DNA of 64,000 bases. Origin: Desulfuromonas acetoxidans DSM 684. GTDB taxonomy: Bacteria; Desulfobacterota; Desulfuromonadia; Desulfuromonadales; Desulfuromonadaceae. The position numbers and the translations under genes are program-made. Positions within the stretch are counted from its first letter, which is position 1, and the number at the start of each line of letters is the position of its first letter. Location: positions 1-64,000 of the forward strand of contig NZ_AAEW02000012.1 of assembly GCF_000167355.1 (NCBI RefSeq), read 5' to 3'. Below the pieces are notes generated by a model, which saw only the letters and a list, made by a program, of their open reading frames with translations, was not told the DNA's origin and made no database searches. Of this stretch, positions 38,965 through 51,703 are shown piece after piece.

Positions 38965-40887
38965 TTACTGAAATTTGCCATCCTGTGAAAAGGGCAACAC
39001 CCACAAGGCACTGCTGCCTGGAGCGGAGTAGGTTGCCGTGGTCCCTGACGCGATAATTTGGCCGTCGTTGTTGATTTTCACAGCGCTGAATGAATCGCTT
39101 TGATTCGTGTCACCCAGCGGGTTGATCCATTTCTGGTTGCCTTCGTTGTCCAGACGGCAGAGGTAGGCGAGCTGCATGGCGTCTCCGGCGATGATCGCTT
39201 CGTCGTTGATCAGGGCCAGGTCATTGACGTGAGAACTCTGGTCCGTGAGGTTTTCAAAGAGAATCTTTTGCCATAACACGTTGCCCGATGCATCGGCTTT
39301 GACGGCAATGGCTTGATTGATTGAGTCGCCGATGATTTCTCCAGCGGTGATGATTGATCCGTCCGCAGCTTTGAGCGCTTTGATAAAGAGGGTGCCGCTG
39401 TCTGCACAATATTGTGTCCAGCGAAATTGCCCGTCGCCATCAATCTCAGCTAGAAAACCGCGGCTGATGTCTGTGCCCGGTTTGGTGCCATAACCGCATA
39501 ACAAGAGGTTGCCGTTGTCGAGTGCGGTGATGCCGGCGAGGGTATCTTTGTTTGCTGAGCCGCCGATGGTTTTTTGCCAGAGGACCGTGCCGGATGGGGA
39601 AAGCTTGATCAGAACGGCATCGCGGTCTTGCGTTTGTTGCGTGTGAGTGCGGCCACCGGCGTAGTAGTTGCCGTTGTTGTCTTCGGCAACGATATTGAGG
39701 ATGACATTGGGGAAATCTTTTTGCCAGAGCAACACGCCCGTTGAGCTGAGCTTGGCCACGGAGCTGGTTTGATTGCCGTTGGCTGTCTGGAGCAGGGCTG
39801 TCAGCAGATCGTGTGTTTGTGTTTCAACAATGGCCCTGGAATGGATATCGACACCTTCAGTGCCCGGCAGCAGTTTTTGCCATTGCAGGTGGTTATTGGC
39901 GTTGAATTTGAGCAACAGAGGCTGGGTCGAGCCGTTGAGAGAACTCTCACCGGCAATGATATACCCGGCATCGGCGGTTAAGGCCATGGCCTGATCAAAC
40001 ATATCTTCGTCGCTGTTACCGAAGCCGAACGTGTGCAGGAACATCTCCTTGTTCTTTTTGTACGCAGCACGGTTGTTCTCATAATACTCGGCAAGGACAA
40101 CATCTCTTCGGTTGCGGACATCGTTGGCGAACCCACGACTCCAGGTGGCCAGCTTGTCAAGTTCTCCCATGATGTCTGTTTCGGAGAGCTGTTTGTTGTA
40201 TTGGATGTACTCATTCCGTTGCTCAACCAGTGATGTTGCAATGTCGTCACTGAGTTTTTCGGCACGGTCAATGAGCTGATTAATTTTAATCCGGTGTGTT
40301 TCGTCCAGCAGGTCTGCTTCAGTGACGTTTAATTGTCTGTAGGTTTCTTGAAGGGCTTCGGATGTTCTGAAAAAGGATGGCACTCGGAACGCGACACTAA
40401 GCAGATCCGCTTCTTTCAGTTTGTTTTCTTCTGGGAGACGCAGAGAAAGTTCTAGAACAGCATGGTTGCGTTCTTCGACAACCTGGTGAAGAAATTCATT
40501 GATATTGAGCAAAGGGCCTTGATCATACTGATTGTTCCATGCCACGTTGGTACGATAAAGGCTGGTTCCGGTGCAGGTGATTTCGCCAAACAGTTGTGCC
40601 TGCTGTTTGAGCAGATGGTTTAGTTTTTGAGAGGCCGCGGGGTCGTTCTGCAGGTCAATGGTTTCAGGGATAAACAACACGTCAGACGTGATCAGGTAAA
40701 TGCTGATGGTGTTGCCATCAATAACATACCGGAGGGTTTTGCCGAAACGGTTAGGGGGGTGTTCAAGCGCCTTATCAATCCGGTTGAAAACCATTGCGGA
40801 ACTGTCATCACTGAAATAGTAGTCTACATCTGCATAGGCAGGAAAAGCTGCTGTTATAAATAGAAGAGCGATAAACAGTCTAAGCAT
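38965..40887 (-). CDS. Secreted protein with propeller-like W-Q-K repeats
   Basis: GGGAG precedes the ATG; the signal peptide is MLRLFIALLFITAAFPAYA. Residues 20-290 are helical with no known domain. From about 300 to the end, a repeat of about 45-50 residues returns: GYIIAGES...LLKFNANNHLQWQKLLPG, LLTALLQT...VAKLSSTGVLLWQKDFP, YYAGGRT...LIKLSPSGTVLWQKTIGGS, LLLCGYG...AEIDGDGQFRWTQY. This is the pattern of delta-60/PQQ-like propeller repeats in secreted proteins. Role and ligand unknown. Confidence 0.75.
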   Translation of the reverse strand: MLRLFIALLFITAAFPAYADVDYYFSDDSSAMVFNRIDKALEHPPNRFGKTLRYVIDGNTISIYLITSDVLFIPETIDLQNDPAASQKLNHLLKQQAQLFGEITCTGTSLYRTNVAWNNQYDQGPLLNINEFLHQVVEERNHAVLELSLRLPEENKLKEADLLSVAFRVPSFFRTSEALQETYRQLNVTEADLLDETHRIKINQLIDRAEKLSDDIATSLVEQRNEYIQYNKQLSETDIMGELDKLATWSRGFANDVRNRRDVVLAEYYENNRAAYKKNKEMFLHTFGFGNSDEDMFDQAMALTADAGYIIAGESSLNGSTQPLLLKFNANNHLQWQKLLPGTEGVDIHSRAIVETQTHDLLTALLQTANGNQTSSVAKLSSTGVLLWQKDFPNVILNIVAEDNNGNYYAGGRTHTQQTQDRDAVLIKLSPSGTVLWQKTIGGSANKDTLAGITALDNGNLLLCGYGTKPGTDISRGFLAEIDGDGQFRWTQYCADSGTLFIKALKAADGSIITAGEIIGDSINQAIAVKADASGNVLWQKILFENLTDQSSHVNDLALINDEAIIAGDAMQLAYLCRLDNEGNQKWINPLGDTNQSDSFSAVKINNDGQIIASGTTATYSAPGSSALWVLPFSQDGKFQ

Positions 40888-41127: not shown

Positions 41128-42093
41128 CTAGTAAGCAATACCTGATTTTTTGCGGATCTTGCGCATCACCTTGGAGGCGGCATAACGCGCTTTCTGCGCG
41201 CCCATCTCCAGGGTTTTGTGCAGGGTTTCCTTATCTTCGAGAATCGCATTGCGCCGTTCAGTGAACGGGGTGAAATAGTCGCGTACCGTCTCGAACAGTT
41301 CCTGCTTCACATCGCCGTAGCCGAGACCGCCAGCCAGATAGCGCTGGCGCAGGGCGTCCTGCTGCTCTTTGTCGAGGAACAGGCGGTAGATCTGGAACAC
41401 GTTGCAGGTGTCCGGATCTTTAGGATCTTCCACCGGGGTCGGGTCGGTGACGATGCGCATGATCTGCTTGCGCAGTTGCTTTTCAGTTTGGAACAGGTCG
41501 ATGGTATTGCCGTAGCTTTTGCTCATCTTCTGGCCGTCGAGGCCGGGAACTGTGGCCACGTCATCGTCGATGTCCGGCTCGGGCAGGGTGAAGATCTCGC
41601 CGTATTCGTTGTTGACCTTGGCGGCGATGTCGCGGGTGACTTCCACGTGCTGCTTCTGGTCTTTACCAACCGGCACTTTGTCACTGTTGAAAATGAGGAT
41701 GTCGGCACTCATCAGCACCGGATAGGCAAACAGGCCGTGGTTAGCGGCAATCCCTTTGGCGATTTTATCCTTGTAGCTGTGGCAGCGCTCGAGCAGGCCC
41801 ATGGGGGTGAAGTTGGACAGAAACCAGGCCAGCTCCTGCACTTCAGGCACGTCGGACTGCACCCAGAAGGTGCTGCGCTCCGGGTCCATGCCCAGAGCGA
41901 GAAAGTTAGCGGCTGCCTCCAGAGTGCCTTTGGCCAGGGCTTTGCCGTCGGAGACGCTGGTCATGGCGTGGTAGTTGGCGATGAAACAGAACAGTTCGCC
42001 CTGTTCCTGATAGTCGATCATCTTTTTCATCATGCCGAAGTAGTTACCCAGATGCAGGGAACCGGACGGCTGGATACCGGATAGAATGCGCAT
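41128..42093 (-). CDS. trpS: Tryptophanyl-tRNA synthetase
   Basis: Cytosolic class I synthetase that charges tRNA-Trp. The 321-residue length is normal. The HIGH-type motif is PSGSLHLGNYFG (about 9-20), the tRNA/Trp pocket region YPVLMSADILIFNSDKVPVGKDQ is conserved, and the KMSKS loop is GQKMSKSYGN. The gene follows its own leader region (42138-42343), which encodes a Trp-rich peptide and an intrinsic terminator, so expression is likely governed by tRNA-Trp charging through transcription attenuation. No trp biosynthesis genes are nearby. Confidence 0.96.
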   Translation of the reverse strand: MRILSGIQPSGSLHLGNYFGMMKKMIDYQEQGELFCFIANYHAMTSVSDGKALAKGTLEAAANFLALGMDPERSTFWVQSDVPEVQELAWFLSNFTPMGLLERCHSYKDKIAKGIAANHGLFAYPVLMSADILIFNSDKVPVGKDQKQHVEVTRDIAAKVNNEYGEIFTLPEPDIDDDVATVPGLDGQKMSKSYGNTIDLFQTEKQLRKQIMRIVTDPTPVEDPKDPDTCNVFQIYRLFLDKEQQDALRQRYLAGGLGYGDVKQELFETVRDYFTPFTERRNAILEDKETLHKTLEMGAQKARYAASKVMRKIRKKSGIAY

Positions 42094-42137
42094 GGTGTTG
42101 TCCTTGTGGTGAAAGTAGTTTTATCGTTCAGTAAAAG

Positions 42138-42180
42138 GTCCAAAAACAAAACAAGCCGCGATACGATCATCGCGGCTTGT
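42138..42180 (-). terminator. Attenuator terminator in the trpS leader
   Basis: On the trpS strand, ACAAGCCGCGAT/ATCGCGGCTTGT form a perfect 12-bp stem, then TTTTGTTTTT. It lies 45 bases upstream of trpS, between the leader peptide and the gene. The 5' arm (GCCGCG, 42176-42171) can instead pair with CGCGGC at 42200-42195, an antiterminator that excludes the terminator. Confidence 0.85.
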
Positions 42181-42247
42181 GTGATTTCATTGTTGCCGCG
42201 CCGTGCCCGGCGCAGTCTGTGATGTCAAAAAAGCGAAAGGCACGCGA

Positions 42248-42307
42248 TCAGTCCATAAAGGCTGAGCGCCACCACCATCGCTGTAATGTCATCGTGTGTG
42301 TTTTCAT
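42248..42307 (-). CDS. trpL: Trp leader peptide of trpS
   Basis: A 19-codon frame reads MKTHTMTLQRWWWRSAFMD and stops 68 bases before the attenuator stem. Three consecutive TGG codons (42277-42269) are the hallmark of a tryptophan attenuator; compare the enteric TrpL end GWWRTS. No ribosome-binding site precedes the ATG, but a promoter ends only 7 bases upstream, suggesting that the transcript begins at or next to the ATG. The symbol is used by analogy with trpL of trp operons; here the regulated gene is trpS. Confidence 0.8.
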   Translation of the reverse strand: MKTHTMTLQRWWWRSAFMD

Positions 42308-42314
42308 AGCGCGC

Positions 42315-42343
42315 AGAGTAGCAGGTTCGGGAGGCACGGTCAA
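42315..42343 (-). promoter_or_regulatory. Promoter of the trpS leader transcript
   Basis: On the minus strand TTGACC (42343-42338), a 17-base spacer and TACTCT (42320-42315). Only 7 bases separate the -10 box from the leader ATG. Confidence 0.6.
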
Positions 42344-42352
42344 TGCTGTTGT

Positions 42353-42397
42353 CAGGATGTTGAAAAAGCCACGACCGAGGGCATTTCAACAGCCTGT
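42353..42397. repeat. Minimal copy of repeat family C (45 bp)
   Basis: CAGGATGTTGAAAAAG and CATTTCAACAGCCTG are the two family C ends, with only about 14 bases between them. It looks like an internally deleted form of the 154-bp elements at 20809 and 24071. It overlaps the 3' end of the transglutaminase-like gene. Confidence 0.65.
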
Positions 42398-42970
42398 CTG
42401 CGTGATGTCGGGCAGGTTATGATAGACCTCCTCGACCGTCCGGTAGCGGGTTAACACCTTGACCACCTCAGGCAACGGTTCGGCATGGCGCTGTGGTAGA
42501 TCGTATTCGCCACCGGTAACAGTGGGAAAAGCCAGTTGCTCGACGGGTGGGCAGAACTGAGCATCAACGCCGGGCTTGTTACCGCGTGGGTCGATCCGAT
42601 ACCAGCCGTCGTGGTCCAGCCATACCGCAGTCAGGCCATGCAAGCAGAATGAGACAGGTTGCTGTGTTTCATCAAGGATCAGCCGTTGGTAGCACAGGGC
42701 TGCTGGAATGGCGTTGGCGCGCAGCAGAGCGACCAGCAGGTGGCTTTTGGCGTAACAGTAGCCGGTGCCGTGCTCCAGCACATCGGAGGCGATGCAGGTG
42801 ACCGGTCCCAGACGGTAATCCCAGCTGTGCTTGATGGTGTCACGGACAAACTCAAAGCAGTTTTTGGCCGTTTGCTCATTATCGTTGTCAATGCGCAATG
42901 CGGCAGCCTTGGCTTGAATGGCCGGATGGTGATGATTAATGATGTCGCTCTGGGCCAAATACGCTTCCAT
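42386..42970 (-). CDS. Transglutaminase-like cysteine protease-fold protein
   Basis: A 194-residue cytosolic protein with the transglutaminase-core triad: Cys in HGTGYCYAKSHLLVALLRANAIPAA, His in LHGLTAVWL and Asp in WYRIDPRGN. The preceding NCFEFVRDTIKHSWDY helix is also typical. The start at 42970 is preferred on domain grounds; a GTG at 43012 is possible, and neither has a good ribosome site. The last codons (QTGC) derive from a family C repeat, so the C-terminus may have been replaced when the repeat arrived. Substrate unknown. Confidence 0.85.
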   Translation of the reverse strand: MEAYLAQSDIINHHHPAIQAKAAALRIDNDNEQTAKNCFEFVRDTIKHSWDYRLGPVTCIASDVLEHGTGYCYAKSHLLVALLRANAIPAALCYQRLILDETQQPVSFCLHGLTAVWLDHDGWYRIDPRGNKPGVDAQFCPPVEQLAFPTVTGGEYDLPQRHAEPLPEVVKVLTRYRTVEEVYHNLPDITQTGC

Positions 42971-43071
42971 GAGAGCACTCCGTGTGATCAAAAATAGCTG
43001 TGATATCGACACATAACATCATGGTTGGGCAGGGTAAAGAAAAATCATTTTACCCTATAGCAAGGTGGTGA

Positions 43072-43664: not shown

Positions 43665-44513
43665 TCAGGCTCCGCGACGCGGAACCAGGAAATAATAGCC
43701 TTGGTAACTGAAGATGGCACCGTCTGTGGTGATCTCCTCAAGACGGTAGCGGTTTTCCAGCATGCTGCCTGCGCGCATGATGCGATCATTGAGGCGAATC
43801 AGGCTGGTGCTCTGGTCGCCGGTAAAGGCATGAACCGACATGTGCAAGCGGGGCAGTTGTTGCTGAATGCTGCCGGGCAGTTCGGTTAAGGCCAAGATCT
43901 TGCGCGCCGGAGGCTGTGGTGCCGCCACGGGCTGAGCGATCGGCTTGGCAACTTCAGCCGTTTGTTCAGGCTGCGGCGGCTCAGGTGTGGTGACAACAGC
44001 TTGTGGTGCGGGTTTTTGTACTGGAGCCGATTGTGGGGCCGGTTGTGGAACCGATTGCGCCACTCCGGCCACGGGCTTTGTGGTCACAACGCTCTGTACG
44101 ACGGGCTCTTCCGTCGGCGGGGTTGTGATCGGTGTTTCTGTTACCGCGACCTGTGGTTCCGGCATAACCGTTGTAGCAGGAGTTGTCGGGGCCGGTTGTT
44201 GCACCGCAGGCTCGGGGACCGGTGGTGTGATGGGTGCCTTTGGTTCTACGACTGCGGTTTGTACCGGAGTCTCAACAGCAGTTTCTGTTTTTGGAGCTGT
44301 TGCAACCTCTGGAGCTTTAGCGCTGCTCCATGGACCGAACAGCCACAACAGAATTGCGGCATTGAGCACTAGAACCACGACCAGCACCAGCGGCCAGATC
44401 GGACGCTTGCGCGGTGCGGGCGACGCAGAGTCGTGTTGACTGTCCAGAGTCGGGGTGGTGTTTTCCTGGCGATTTTTTTCCGACTTCTTCAGGGCTTCGA
44501 GAATGAAAGACAT
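43665..44513 (-). CDS. gspB: General secretion pathway protein B-like (GspB)
   Basis: Inner-membrane anchor protein that works with GspA in placing the type II secretin through the cell wall. MSFILEALKKSEKNRQ is the diagnostic N-terminus, one membrane helix lies at about 38-60 (IWPLVLVVVLVLNAAILLWLF), then a 130-residue Pro/Val/Thr/Gln-rich spacer. The C-terminal domain, LPGSIQQQLPRLHMSVHAFTGDQSTSLIRLNDRIMRAG, matches GspB. GGAGGG precedes the ATG, which lies 6 bases after the gspA stop, so they form an operon. Confidence 0.88.
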   Translation of the reverse strand: MSFILEALKKSEKNRQENTTPTLDSQHDSASPAPRKRPIWPLVLVVVLVLNAAILLWLFGPWSSAKAPEVATAPKTETAVETPVQTAVVEPKAPITPPVPEPAVQQPAPTTPATTVMPEPQVAVTETPITTPPTEEPVVQSVVTTKPVAGVAQSVPQPAPQSAPVQKPAPQAVVTTPEPPQPEQTAEVAKPIAQPVAAPQPPARKILALTELPGSIQQQLPRLHMSVHAFTGDQSTSLIRLNDRIMRAGSMLENRYRLEEITTDGAIFSYQGYYFLVPRRGA

Positions 44514-44519
44514 GGTCGG

Positions 44520-46178
44520 TTAGCCCTCCGTAGGCGCCGTCAGTTGCGGGTGCTGAACGGCGAGATGATTGTTAAGGTGGATCAGGGTGATGGGGCCGAT
44601 AATGCCATCGGCCGCCAGACCTTCGGATTGCTGGAACTGCTGCAGTTCGTCGAGCAGTAAACCATTGAGGCGCAGGGTTGCATCGGGCCGTGGCTCGCGT
44701 TGCATCAGGTGCGCCAGTTGTTGTTCCAGCCACAACACCATCGGGCCCTCTTCATCGGGGGGAACCGCTCCGCTGTAGGCACTGGGCGGTTGCCACAGCA
44801 GGGTGAATTCGCCGTACCACTGTTCCATCAGGTCACTGGTGGCGACGGTGTGGATCTGGTCGCCGATGACAAAAGTGGCCACATCAGCATTGAGGCCGGT
44901 CAGGGTGGCGAAGAAGCGTTGGCCATGTTGGTCCTGCAAGGTGAGGATCGCCGGTCGGTTCAACTGGCGCAGGCTGCCGAGGCTGCCGCGTTTGTTGAGA
45001 AAACGCAGGCCCTGTTGCAGGGCATAATCTCCGGCAAGCATCTGTTCTGGCGCAAAGTCGTGTCCCCAGACGCGGAACAGGGTCTGGTAGGCCATCTGCT
45101 GACTTTGAGTCAGGGGGATATGGCTGGGCCAGGCAAGAACATCAACTTCAGATGTTTCCGGCTGTGCCGGGGATGCCGTAACCGCCGGCAGTTCGACAAC
45201 GGTTTGCTCGACCACCTGGGCCGGGGCCATGGGCTGCCGGGGCGCTGGTGCCGTGTCTTGGCCGGGATTCCATGTCGTGGCTGCGACTGCGGCAACACTG
45301 GCCAGAGCCAAGCTGCCGAGAATCCAGTTCCAGCGCAGTGCTGATTTTTGCTGGTGGCCATCTGCGGATGGATCGCCGAACACTTCGCGTGCTGTGATGG
45401 CCATGAGTTTATGGCTGACCGTGTTCTGTTCTTTGACATAGGCACCGAGCAGGGCGCGGTCGCATAACAGGTTGATCAGGCGTGGCACACCGCCACTGAG
45501 ACGGTACAGTTTGCGGATGGTGGCGGCCGGGAACAGGGGGCGTTCCACTCCGGCGACCTTGAGACGGTGGCTGATGTAACCAACCATCTCCTGCTGTGAC
45601 AGCGGCTCAAGGTGGTAGCGGGCGGTAATACGTTGCGCCAACTGGCGCAGCTCAGGACGCTCGAGCATGGCCTTGAGTTCCGGCTGACCGAGCATAATGA
45701 CTTGAAGGAGCTTTTGGGTGTTGGTTTCCAGATTGGTCAGCAGACGAATCTGTTCCAGAACATCGACGGACAGGTTTTGCGCCTCGTCAATGATCAACAC
45801 CGTCTTGCGGCCCTTGGCGTGGGTGTCGAGCAGATATTGGTTAATGCCGTCGACAAACACCTTGATGCTCTGGTTGTCTTGTGGATAGCGGATGCCCAGC
45901 TCATCGCAGATCGTCGCCAACAGCTCGACGGCGGTCACTTTGGGATTGAGCACAAAGGCGATCTCGGCGTCCTCGGGCACCTGCTCGAGCAGACAGCGGC
46001 ACACCGTGGTTTTGCCGGTGCCGACCTCACCGGTGAGCAGGACGAAGCCGCCGTCAGACTGCAGGCCGTAGATCAAGTGGGCCAGCGCTTCGCGGTGGCG
46101 TTCACTCATGTAAAGATATTGGGGATCCGGTGCAATGGAGAAGGGTTTGTCTTTGAGACCGAAATAGTCTTTGTACAT
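44520..46178 (-). CDS. gspA: GspA/ExeA-type AAA ATPase with peptidoglycan-binding domain
   Basis: MYKDYFGLKDKPFSIAPDPQYLYMSERHREALAHL is the standard start. The AAA domain has the Walker A GEVGTGKTT and Walker B TVLIIDEAQNL. One membrane helix follows at about 275-295 (ILGSLALASVAAVAATTW). The periplasmic part includes a C39-protease-like degenerate region and ends with a peptidoglycan-binding-1 domain (LDELQQFQQSEGLAADGIIGP). With GspB it couples ATP use to secretin passage through murein. The rest of the type II system is not in this window. Confidence 0.92.
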   Translation of the reverse strand: MYKDYFGLKDKPFSIAPDPQYLYMSERHREALAHLIYGLQSDGGFVLLTGEVGTGKTTVCRCLLEQVPEDAEIAFVLNPKVTAVELLATICDELGIRYPQDNQSIKVFVDGINQYLLDTHAKGRKTVLIIDEAQNLSVDVLEQIRLLTNLETNTQKLLQVIMLGQPELKAMLERPELRQLAQRITARYHLEPLSQQEMVGYISHRLKVAGVERPLFPAATIRKLYRLSGGVPRLINLLCDRALLGAYVKEQNTVSHKLMAITAREVFGDPSADGHQQKSALRWNWILGSLALASVAAVAATTWNPGQDTAPAPRQPMAPAQVVEQTVVELPAVTASPAQPETSEVDVLAWPSHIPLTQSQQMAYQTLFRVWGHDFAPEQMLAGDYALQQGLRFLNKRGSLGSLRQLNRPAILTLQDQHGQRFFATLTGLNADVATFVIGDQIHTVATSDLMEQWYGEFTLLWQPPSAYSGAVPPDEEGPMVLWLEQQLAHLMQREPRPDATLRLNGLLLDELQQFQQSEGLAADGIIGPITLIHLNNHLAVQHPQLTAPTEG

Positions 46179-51410: not shown

Positions 51411-51433
51411 ACGGGAGAAATCCCGTATAAAGT

Positions 51434-51520
51434 GCCGCTTCCCTACGCCGGTATAACCCGGATCAGGTTCTAAGGGTCGTCCCGCAACAGGACTCTCAGT
51501 AATAAACTCCCCCAGGGCTT
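51434..51520 (-). promoter_or_regulatory. TPP riboswitch (THI element)
   Basis: On the minus strand the conserved aptamer words occur in order: CCCTGGGGGAG, ACTGAGAG, GACCCTTAGAACCTGATC, CGGGTTATACCGGCGTAGGG and AAGC. It lies 90 bases upstream of thiF and should repress thiFSGHE when thiamine diphosphate is abundant. Confidence 0.96.
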
Positions 51521-51703
51521 TTCACAATTTTTCAAACAAAAAACTAACGTCCGTATACCTTAAAGTCAACTTTTTTATCGGTTTGCCGTTGTTTTTCAGG
51601 GTGGCTTTCCACTAGTATGGGCGCAACTTAAACGAAGACGGTTCGACCACGTGTTTTTTGTGTGCTCGACTTATGATAAATAGCATTGTAAAGGAGTGTC
51701 GTG

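Follow-up and report, generated by a model that had tools for sequence, protein, structure and literature searches.

Ribosome-mediated attenuation is a classic mechanism of transcription control. The classical trpL leader has four RNA segments; the his attenuator has segments A to F, and its pairs A:B, C:D and E:F are mutually exclusive with B:C and D:E. In many Firmicutes, trpS is controlled by T-boxes. The leader described here lies upstream of trpS in the window (the whole stretch of 64,000 nucleotides that was analysed) and recurs in the order of the window, the Desulfuromonadales. The trpL leaders of enterobacteria and rhizobia have tandem Trp codons, competing stems and an intrinsic terminator in common with the trpS leaders of the order; however, they control trpE, whereas the leader of the order precedes trpS and has six segments rather than four. 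The proposed pairing logic of the trpS leader, 1:2, 3:4 and 5:6 versus 2:3 and 4:5, resembles that of the his attenuator, but the latter has His codons and controls a biosynthetic operon, whereas the former has Trp codons and precedes a tRNA synthetase gene.

Leaders before trpS have been described in other bacteria; the statements that follow refer to the accessible part of each paper. An attenuator was predicted before trpS2 of Streptomyces avermitilis (PMC1262725), a trpL2-trpS arrangement with one Trp codon was reported in S. lividans, where both trpL1 and trpL2 are described as leaderless (PMC8079986), and a putative small leader CDS was placed on the Caulobacter trpS mRNA (PMC4117421). 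In Sinorhizobium meliloti the trpL RNA begins with its ATG (PMC7298713). A pheST attenuator of gammaproteobacteria is also named (PMC1262725); it resembles the present case in placing a leader peptide on a tRNA synthetase operon, but it has Phe codons and another gene. Leu, Trp and Met leaders are reported in Campylobacter, and trpS is unmentioned in the accessible part of that paper (PMC3847290); the words trpS and tryptophan are likewise absent from the accessible main text of a screen for premature terminators (PMC2965389). In the open-access literature searched, we found no report of leader-peptide control of trpS in the Desulfuromonadales. The first-pass annotation of this DNA had called a Trp leader for trpS unusual; that is right, yet there are precedents in S. 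avermitilis, S. lividans and Caulobacter (PMC1262725; PMC8079986; PMC4117421). The Streptomyces and Caulobacter leaders are like those of the order in having a leader ORF before trpS, and trpL2 of S. lividans is leaderless too; however, trpL2 has one Trp codon and, in the accessible part of the report, no U-rich stretch was found (PMC8079986), whereas in the order two or three Trp codons are usual and the intrinsic terminator is strong. Streptomyces and Caulobacter belong to other phyla, and the likeness is one of layout.

Results

All strings and coordinates in the first-pass annotation were re-read and were identical base for base. The features of the locus are given in Table 1; on the minus strand they follow one another in the order −35 element, extended −10 element, leader ORF, competing stems, terminator with its T-rich tail, AAGGA and trpS. 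The trpS product scored 306.5 bits against TIGR00233 (cut-off, 176.75). It was 97% identical to the TrpS of a MAG named Desulfuromonas sp., and its matches of more than 75% identity carried names such as Desulfuromonas, Desulfuromonadaceae, Desulfuromonadales, Geobacteraceae or Deltaproteobacteria, which points to a Desulfuromonas-like member of the order. The annotation had noticed a 19-codon frame with three TGG codons, followed by a terminator with a T-run before trpS; both were found again, the terminator with a stem of 13 pairs when G-T pairs are allowed. An ORF on the same strand (42386-43012, −) ends 78 nt 5' of the leader ATG; judged by eye its product resembles a transglutaminase-type protein, and it gave 0 NCBIfam matches. 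Among the other neighbours, ORFs 44520-46178 and 43665-44513 (−) resemble by eye an ExeA/GspA-type ATPase and a GspB-type partner, and ORF 38965-40887 (−; 640 aa) had weak, below-cut-off matches to SBBP beta-propeller lipoprotein and delta-60 repeat models.

Table 1 Features of the trpS leader region of the window
Feature	Sequence or description	Position	Strand	Basis
−35 element of the trpS promoter	TTGACC	42338..42343	-	Spacer and pattern conserved across families
Extended −10 element	TGCTACTCT	42315..42323	-	TGN-TANNN[TC] conserved in leader loci
Leader ORF	MKTHTMTLQRWWWRSAFMD and stop, 19 codons, probably leaderless	42248..42307	-	Direct reading
Three consecutive Trp codons	TGGTGGTGG, putative sensor	42269..42277	-	Direct reading
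Segment 1	GCGCUCAG, can pair with segment 2 if free of the ribosome	42262..42269	-	Reading; RNAalifold consensus, 11 family leaders
Segment 2	CUGAUCGCGUGCC, overlaps the leader stop codon; partners 1 or 3	42239..42251	-	Direct reading
Segment 3	GCGCCGGGCACG, GGCACG to segment 2, GCGCCG to segment 4	42202..42213	-	Reading; RNAalifold consensus, 11 family leaders
Segment 4	CGGCGCGGC, partners 3 or the terminator 5' arm (antiterminator)	42195..42203	-	Reading; 4:5 pairs conserved
Intrinsic terminator hairpin	Segments 5 and 6	42151..42180	-	Terminator scan; stem conserved
T-rich tail of the terminator	TTTGTTTTTG	42141..42150	-	Terminator scan
Shine-Dalgarno sequence of trpS	AAGGA	42101..42105	-	Direct reading
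trpS	Tryptophan--tRNA ligase, regulated gene in the proposed scheme	41128..42093	-	TIGR00233 above cut-off

Apart from the leader frame, no ATG-started ORF of 8–40 codons in the 64-kb window contains WWW, whichever strand is read, and shuffled windows (n = 40) contained a mean of 0.15 such ORFs. None of 200 shuffles folded as well as the 216-nt region (z, −4.29), and the terminator was the sole terminator-like site in 42080-42420, where 0.3 would be expected from shuffles. On the trpS leader region no Rfam family reached its gathering score, and at E ≤ 10 there were sub-threshold matches to unrelated families alone. Near the leader of one relative (L212) there was a sub-threshold match to Rfam Thr_leader (27.2 bits against a gathering score of 55; E, 0.26). 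In the whole window, just one match reached its Rfam gathering score, a TPP riboswitch at 51423-51523 (−; 67.8 bits).

The −35 and −10 elements of the window are separated by a 17-nt spacer, and 7 nt lie between the −10 element and the leader ATG. The spacer was 17 nt in 33 of 34 leader loci and 18 nt in the remaining one. The pattern TGN-TANNN[TC] was found 7–10 nt 5' of the leader ATG in 34/34 leader loci, which were chosen partly by this promoter pattern, and it was present in 32 of 33 loci picked by Trp codons alone. A generic sigma-70 scan scored 0 promoters at the window locus, so that the promoter call there rests on conservation. Because the gap between promoter and leader ATG is no more than 7 nt, the leader is probably leaderless, and transcription would start at or adjoining the A of that ATG. 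None of the 34 leader ATGs was preceded by a Shine-Dalgarno-like tetramer, compared with 32 of the 34 trpS starts. The position of the promoter and the ATG thus suggest that the leader ORF is probably translated as a leaderless mRNA.

The Trp codon runs and alternative stems, whose conservation in relatives the first-pass annotation had proposed as a check, recur upstream of trpS across the order. We sampled 98 upstream regions of trpS from the Desulfuromonadales, 93 of them 450 nt long and the others (L020, L068, L078, L087 and L096) shortened by contig ends. Trp leaders of the same build were present at 34 of the 98 loci and in 12 of 21 families (12 leaders in f1, eight in f4, two each in f6, f7, f9 and f19, and one each in f8, f10, f11, f12, f15 and f17); this count leaves out L045, whose start is off the promoter pattern, and keeps L029, although its frame is broken before the Trp codons. 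By-eye reading gave WW-type leaders at 33 of the 98 loci, with WW, WWW and WWRW as recurrent Trp runs, and single-Trp-codon leaders at L013 and L031. From ATG to terminator the leaders measured 145–177 nt. In an automatic test, ATG-WW-stop ORFs of 8–40 codons were found in 31/98 sense regions versus 0/98 antisense, and shuffles of the 98 regions (n = 20) gave a mean of 0.8 and a maximum of 3. An intrinsic terminator lay between leader ORF and trpS in 32/32 leaders given (in L021 as the second-best hairpin), these being 32 of the 35 known leaders with L013, L031 and L045 left out. Three named loci beyond the 98 regions (L105, L108 and L141) also have leaders. The leader was absent from 30 of 31 f8 loci, by eye, and from all 13 f13 loci, and the control must therefore be dispensable. 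At L029 (G029) promoter, Trp codons and terminator are present, and close to an A run there is a break in the frame that begins at the expected ATG, with which sequencing error, slippage and decay are all compatible.

The strings from which the first-pass annotation had built its alternative pairings were re-read as CGTGCC (42244-42239), GGCACG (42207-42202), CGCGGC (42200-42195) and GCCGCG (42176-42171), and the arms of its hairpin as GCGCCG (42213-42208) and CGGCGC (42203-42198). It had overlooked helix 1:2, in which 42269-42262 would pair with 42251-42244 and which can explain termination of an untranslated or early-stalled leader. The strings of its 6-bp 2:3 helix are present, but covariation within the family of the window is weak: in 11 family leaders, 72.7% of the cells were paired and two-sided changes were found at one pair, in three sequences.

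In most leaders of the families other than f1, segment 1 is GGACC directly after the Trp codons, segments 2 to 5 are GGUCCGCG, CGCGGACC, GGUCCGCGGC and GCCGCGGCC, and segment 6 is the 3' terminator arm. In 21 leaders from these families, the termination set (1:2, 3:4 and 5:6) was paired in 88.3% of cells, versus 32–49% for slid versions, and had 10 pairs with two-sided changes; its covariation score was reached by 0/500 shuffles. The terminator stem by itself was 97.0% paired, with compensatory changes. The antitermination set (2:3 and 4:5) was paired in 90.3% of cells, versus 31–47% when slid, and the 4:5 pairs in 95.2%. The termination fold covaries, whereas the antitermination pairs are conserved without excess covariation (278/500 shuffles reached the score). 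For these mutually exclusive terminator and antiterminator folds, then, both pair sets are conserved, and covariation exceeds that of shuffles in the termination set alone. Each segment pairs with two partners, which would limit covariation; this is an explanation and not a proof. The duplex between the terminator arm and upstream sequence was matched by at least 5% of composition-matched shuffles in 28/32 leaders. This outcome of the per-leader energy test is due to the G+C-richness of all the sequence; alignment counts and ribosome placement were then used.

For ribosome placement, the folded stretch of each leader ran from the leading edge of the ribosome through the terminator 5' arm, and the read-out was the probability of capture of this arm by upstream sequence. 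The leading edge was assumed to lie 13 nt from the A-site codon, counted from the first base of that codon. The model is one of equilibrium without kinetics, and its capture values are not values of read-through. Capture with the ribosome at the last Trp codon minus capture at the stop codon had a mean of +0.36 in 32 leaders, versus +0.04 with shuffled inner sequence, and the difference exceeded 0.1 in 28 and 0.3 in 20 of the 32. The predicted switch was absent in four of them (L021, L032, L034 and L098). For the window leader, capture was 0.85 at the last Trp codon versus 0.41 at the stop codon, a difference reached by 3/60 shuffles; taken singly, 13 of the 32 leaders had a difference reached by at most 3/60. 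Followed codon by codon, mean capture was 0.57–0.69 while the ribosome was at least six codons short of the Trp codons, 0.49–0.53 when it was three to five codons short of them, 0.84 over the first two Trp codons, 0.43 at six codons past the last one (22 leaders), 0.49 at the stop codon and 0.61 with no ribosome; given the first and last of these values, the model does not predict firm termination at those two states. The leader stop codon coincides with the point at which the fold switches under the modelled footprint of the ribosome, and in silico the position of the ribosome, on the Trp codons or on the stop codon, is predicted to decide the fold in 28/32 leaders.

An RNA model was built from 22 leaders; its RNAalifold structure is without the 3:4 helix. 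In 58 relatives 29 of its matches scored above 35 bits; by their coordinates all of these lie upstream of trpS, and the other rows among the matches listed reached at most 33 bits. A search of 194 genomes of the class, run with stricter filters than the first, gave matches at E ≤ 1e-6 in 31 genomes, one in each, all of them in the order of the window and upstream of trpS. Many of these 31 are members of the model or near copies, and the independent ones are leaders left out of it; the held-out leader MAMTLIQIDRFWWRWPN in G170, which has the usual promoter and terminator, was found in this way.

These matches lie upstream of trpS and so do not make the element a Trp operon leader, which would control a trp biosynthetic operon. 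In the genome of the window, trpE follows rplQ, and its start is preceded by a hairpin, a T run and about 20 nt; no Trp leader was seen upstream. By our reading, a plausible Trp leader preceded trpE at 0 of 25 assessable loci of the order; 13 of the genomes surveyed for trpE carry the trpS leader. The 25 come from 30 loci, L184, L197 and L198 being left out because the start was mis-assigned and L185 and L195 because they have 9 and 70 nt upstream; L191, with 202 nt upstream, is counted. W-pair matches before trpE were found at L179, L181, L193, L201, L207 and L208. The L179 match falls within rplQ, in another frame, and the others were dismissed by eye, the least clear being the W-S-W frame of L181, which is 15 nt from the trpE start on its upstream side.

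In the rest of the class, the TrpS proteins listed were 35–39% identical to that of the window, versus 69–99% in the order, a sharp break which suggests gene replacement in one lineage. Twenty trpS upstream regions from the rest of the class were without a convincing Trp leader; W-pair matches at five of them (L241, L250, L253, L257 and L259) were not taken for leaders on inspection by eye, and L253 is a tandem repeat. Among 33 trpS loci of distant lineages, W-pair matches occurred in two, L151 and L175; that of L151 lies out of frame inside an apparent coding sequence, and a terminator was not seen there.

On a tree of 76 TrpS proteins, made by a quick method and with long outgroup branches, the leader label (given to L029 by hand) needed 7 changes, versus 24 when shuffled. 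The tree does not polarise these changes, so that gain and loss of the leader are not distinguished by it. Several loci that lack the leader have part of the element. In L028 and L047 the promoter is present, and a terminator hairpin lies no more than about ten bases from the place of the ATG; in L027 the promoter is soon followed by a hairpin that is shorter and carries a T run; in L077 the promoter is accompanied by a stretch resembling the 3' terminator arm; and in L054 it is accompanied by a five-codon ORF as well as a hairpin and T run. At L018 there are stems and a terminator but no Trp codons at the place where L045, its neighbour, has WWR. At L011, trpS starts 4 nt past the stop of the upstream ORF. 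The partial loci have the appearance of decay of an ancestral element.

Discussion

The trpS leader is very probably, to judge from its sequence and modelled folding, a ribosome-mediated transcription attenuator that would match trpS expression to the charging of tRNA-Trp, and the interpretation given in the first-pass annotation is supported overall. Transcription would begin at or adjoining the leader ATG. When charged tRNA-Trp is plentiful, the ribosome would reach the stop codon and cover segment 2, segments 3 and 4 would pair, and the terminator (5:6) would form before trpS. When charging is low, the ribosome would stall on the Trp codons and cover segment 1 alone; 2:3 would then pair, segment 4 would be free to capture the terminator 5' arm (4:5), and polymerase would continue into trpS. 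If the RNA carried no ribosome, 1:2, 3:4 and 5:6 could form and transcription would stop. Translation of the leader and the response of trpS to Trp we infer from this arrangement. By all that sequence can tell, this is a real attenuator, a device of a known kind whose target is uncommon, in bacteria for which no report was found; its place and spread in the Desulfuromonadales seem to be undescribed.

Single-Trp versions (L013 and L031) and the many loci without a leader indicate that tight control cannot be essential. They would fit a leader that answers to translation in general or is mainly a constitutive attenuator lowering trpS expression, as would the mean modelled capture without a ribosome, which is not low; we regard such a leader as improbable, since the recurring WW, WWW and WWRW are hard to account for without Trp sensing. 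Direct sensing of Trp or of uncharged tRNA by the RNA, which would then be a riboswitch or T-box and the small ORF a by-product, is less probable again: alternative folds are present, and many Firmicutes have T-boxes before trpS, but no T-box was among the Rfam matches listed for the window and nine relatives, the leaders span 145–177 nt from ATG to terminator, and the conserved core consists of the Trp codons and competing stems, with the stop codon at the modelled switch point of the footprint. Least credible of all is a terminator that just ends an upstream transcript, with the WWW frame there by chance, for although ORF 42386-43012 ends close by on the same strand, the promoter sits between it and the terminator, promoter, Trp frame, stems and terminator accompany trpS in 12 families, and ATG-WW-stop frames far exceed the number expected from shuffling.

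On the history of the attenuator we lean, by a little, toward the view that the Desulfuromonadales had an ancestral leaderless six-segment homeostat of tRNA charging, placed on trpS and not on the trp operon, which was dismantled several times and left promoter and terminator remnants. If the attenuator reading is true, leader-peptide control of a tRNA synthetase gene is extended to a group without a report found, and the intact, single-Trp and apparently decayed versions are a natural series on the worth of the switch to the cell. The leader would also offer a test of leaderless translation in these bacteria, because it must be read from the 5' end to work.

At L037, L038, L053 and L068, which have no leader, GGGGACA...TGTCCCC inverted repeats near trpS look by eye like mobile repeat elements.
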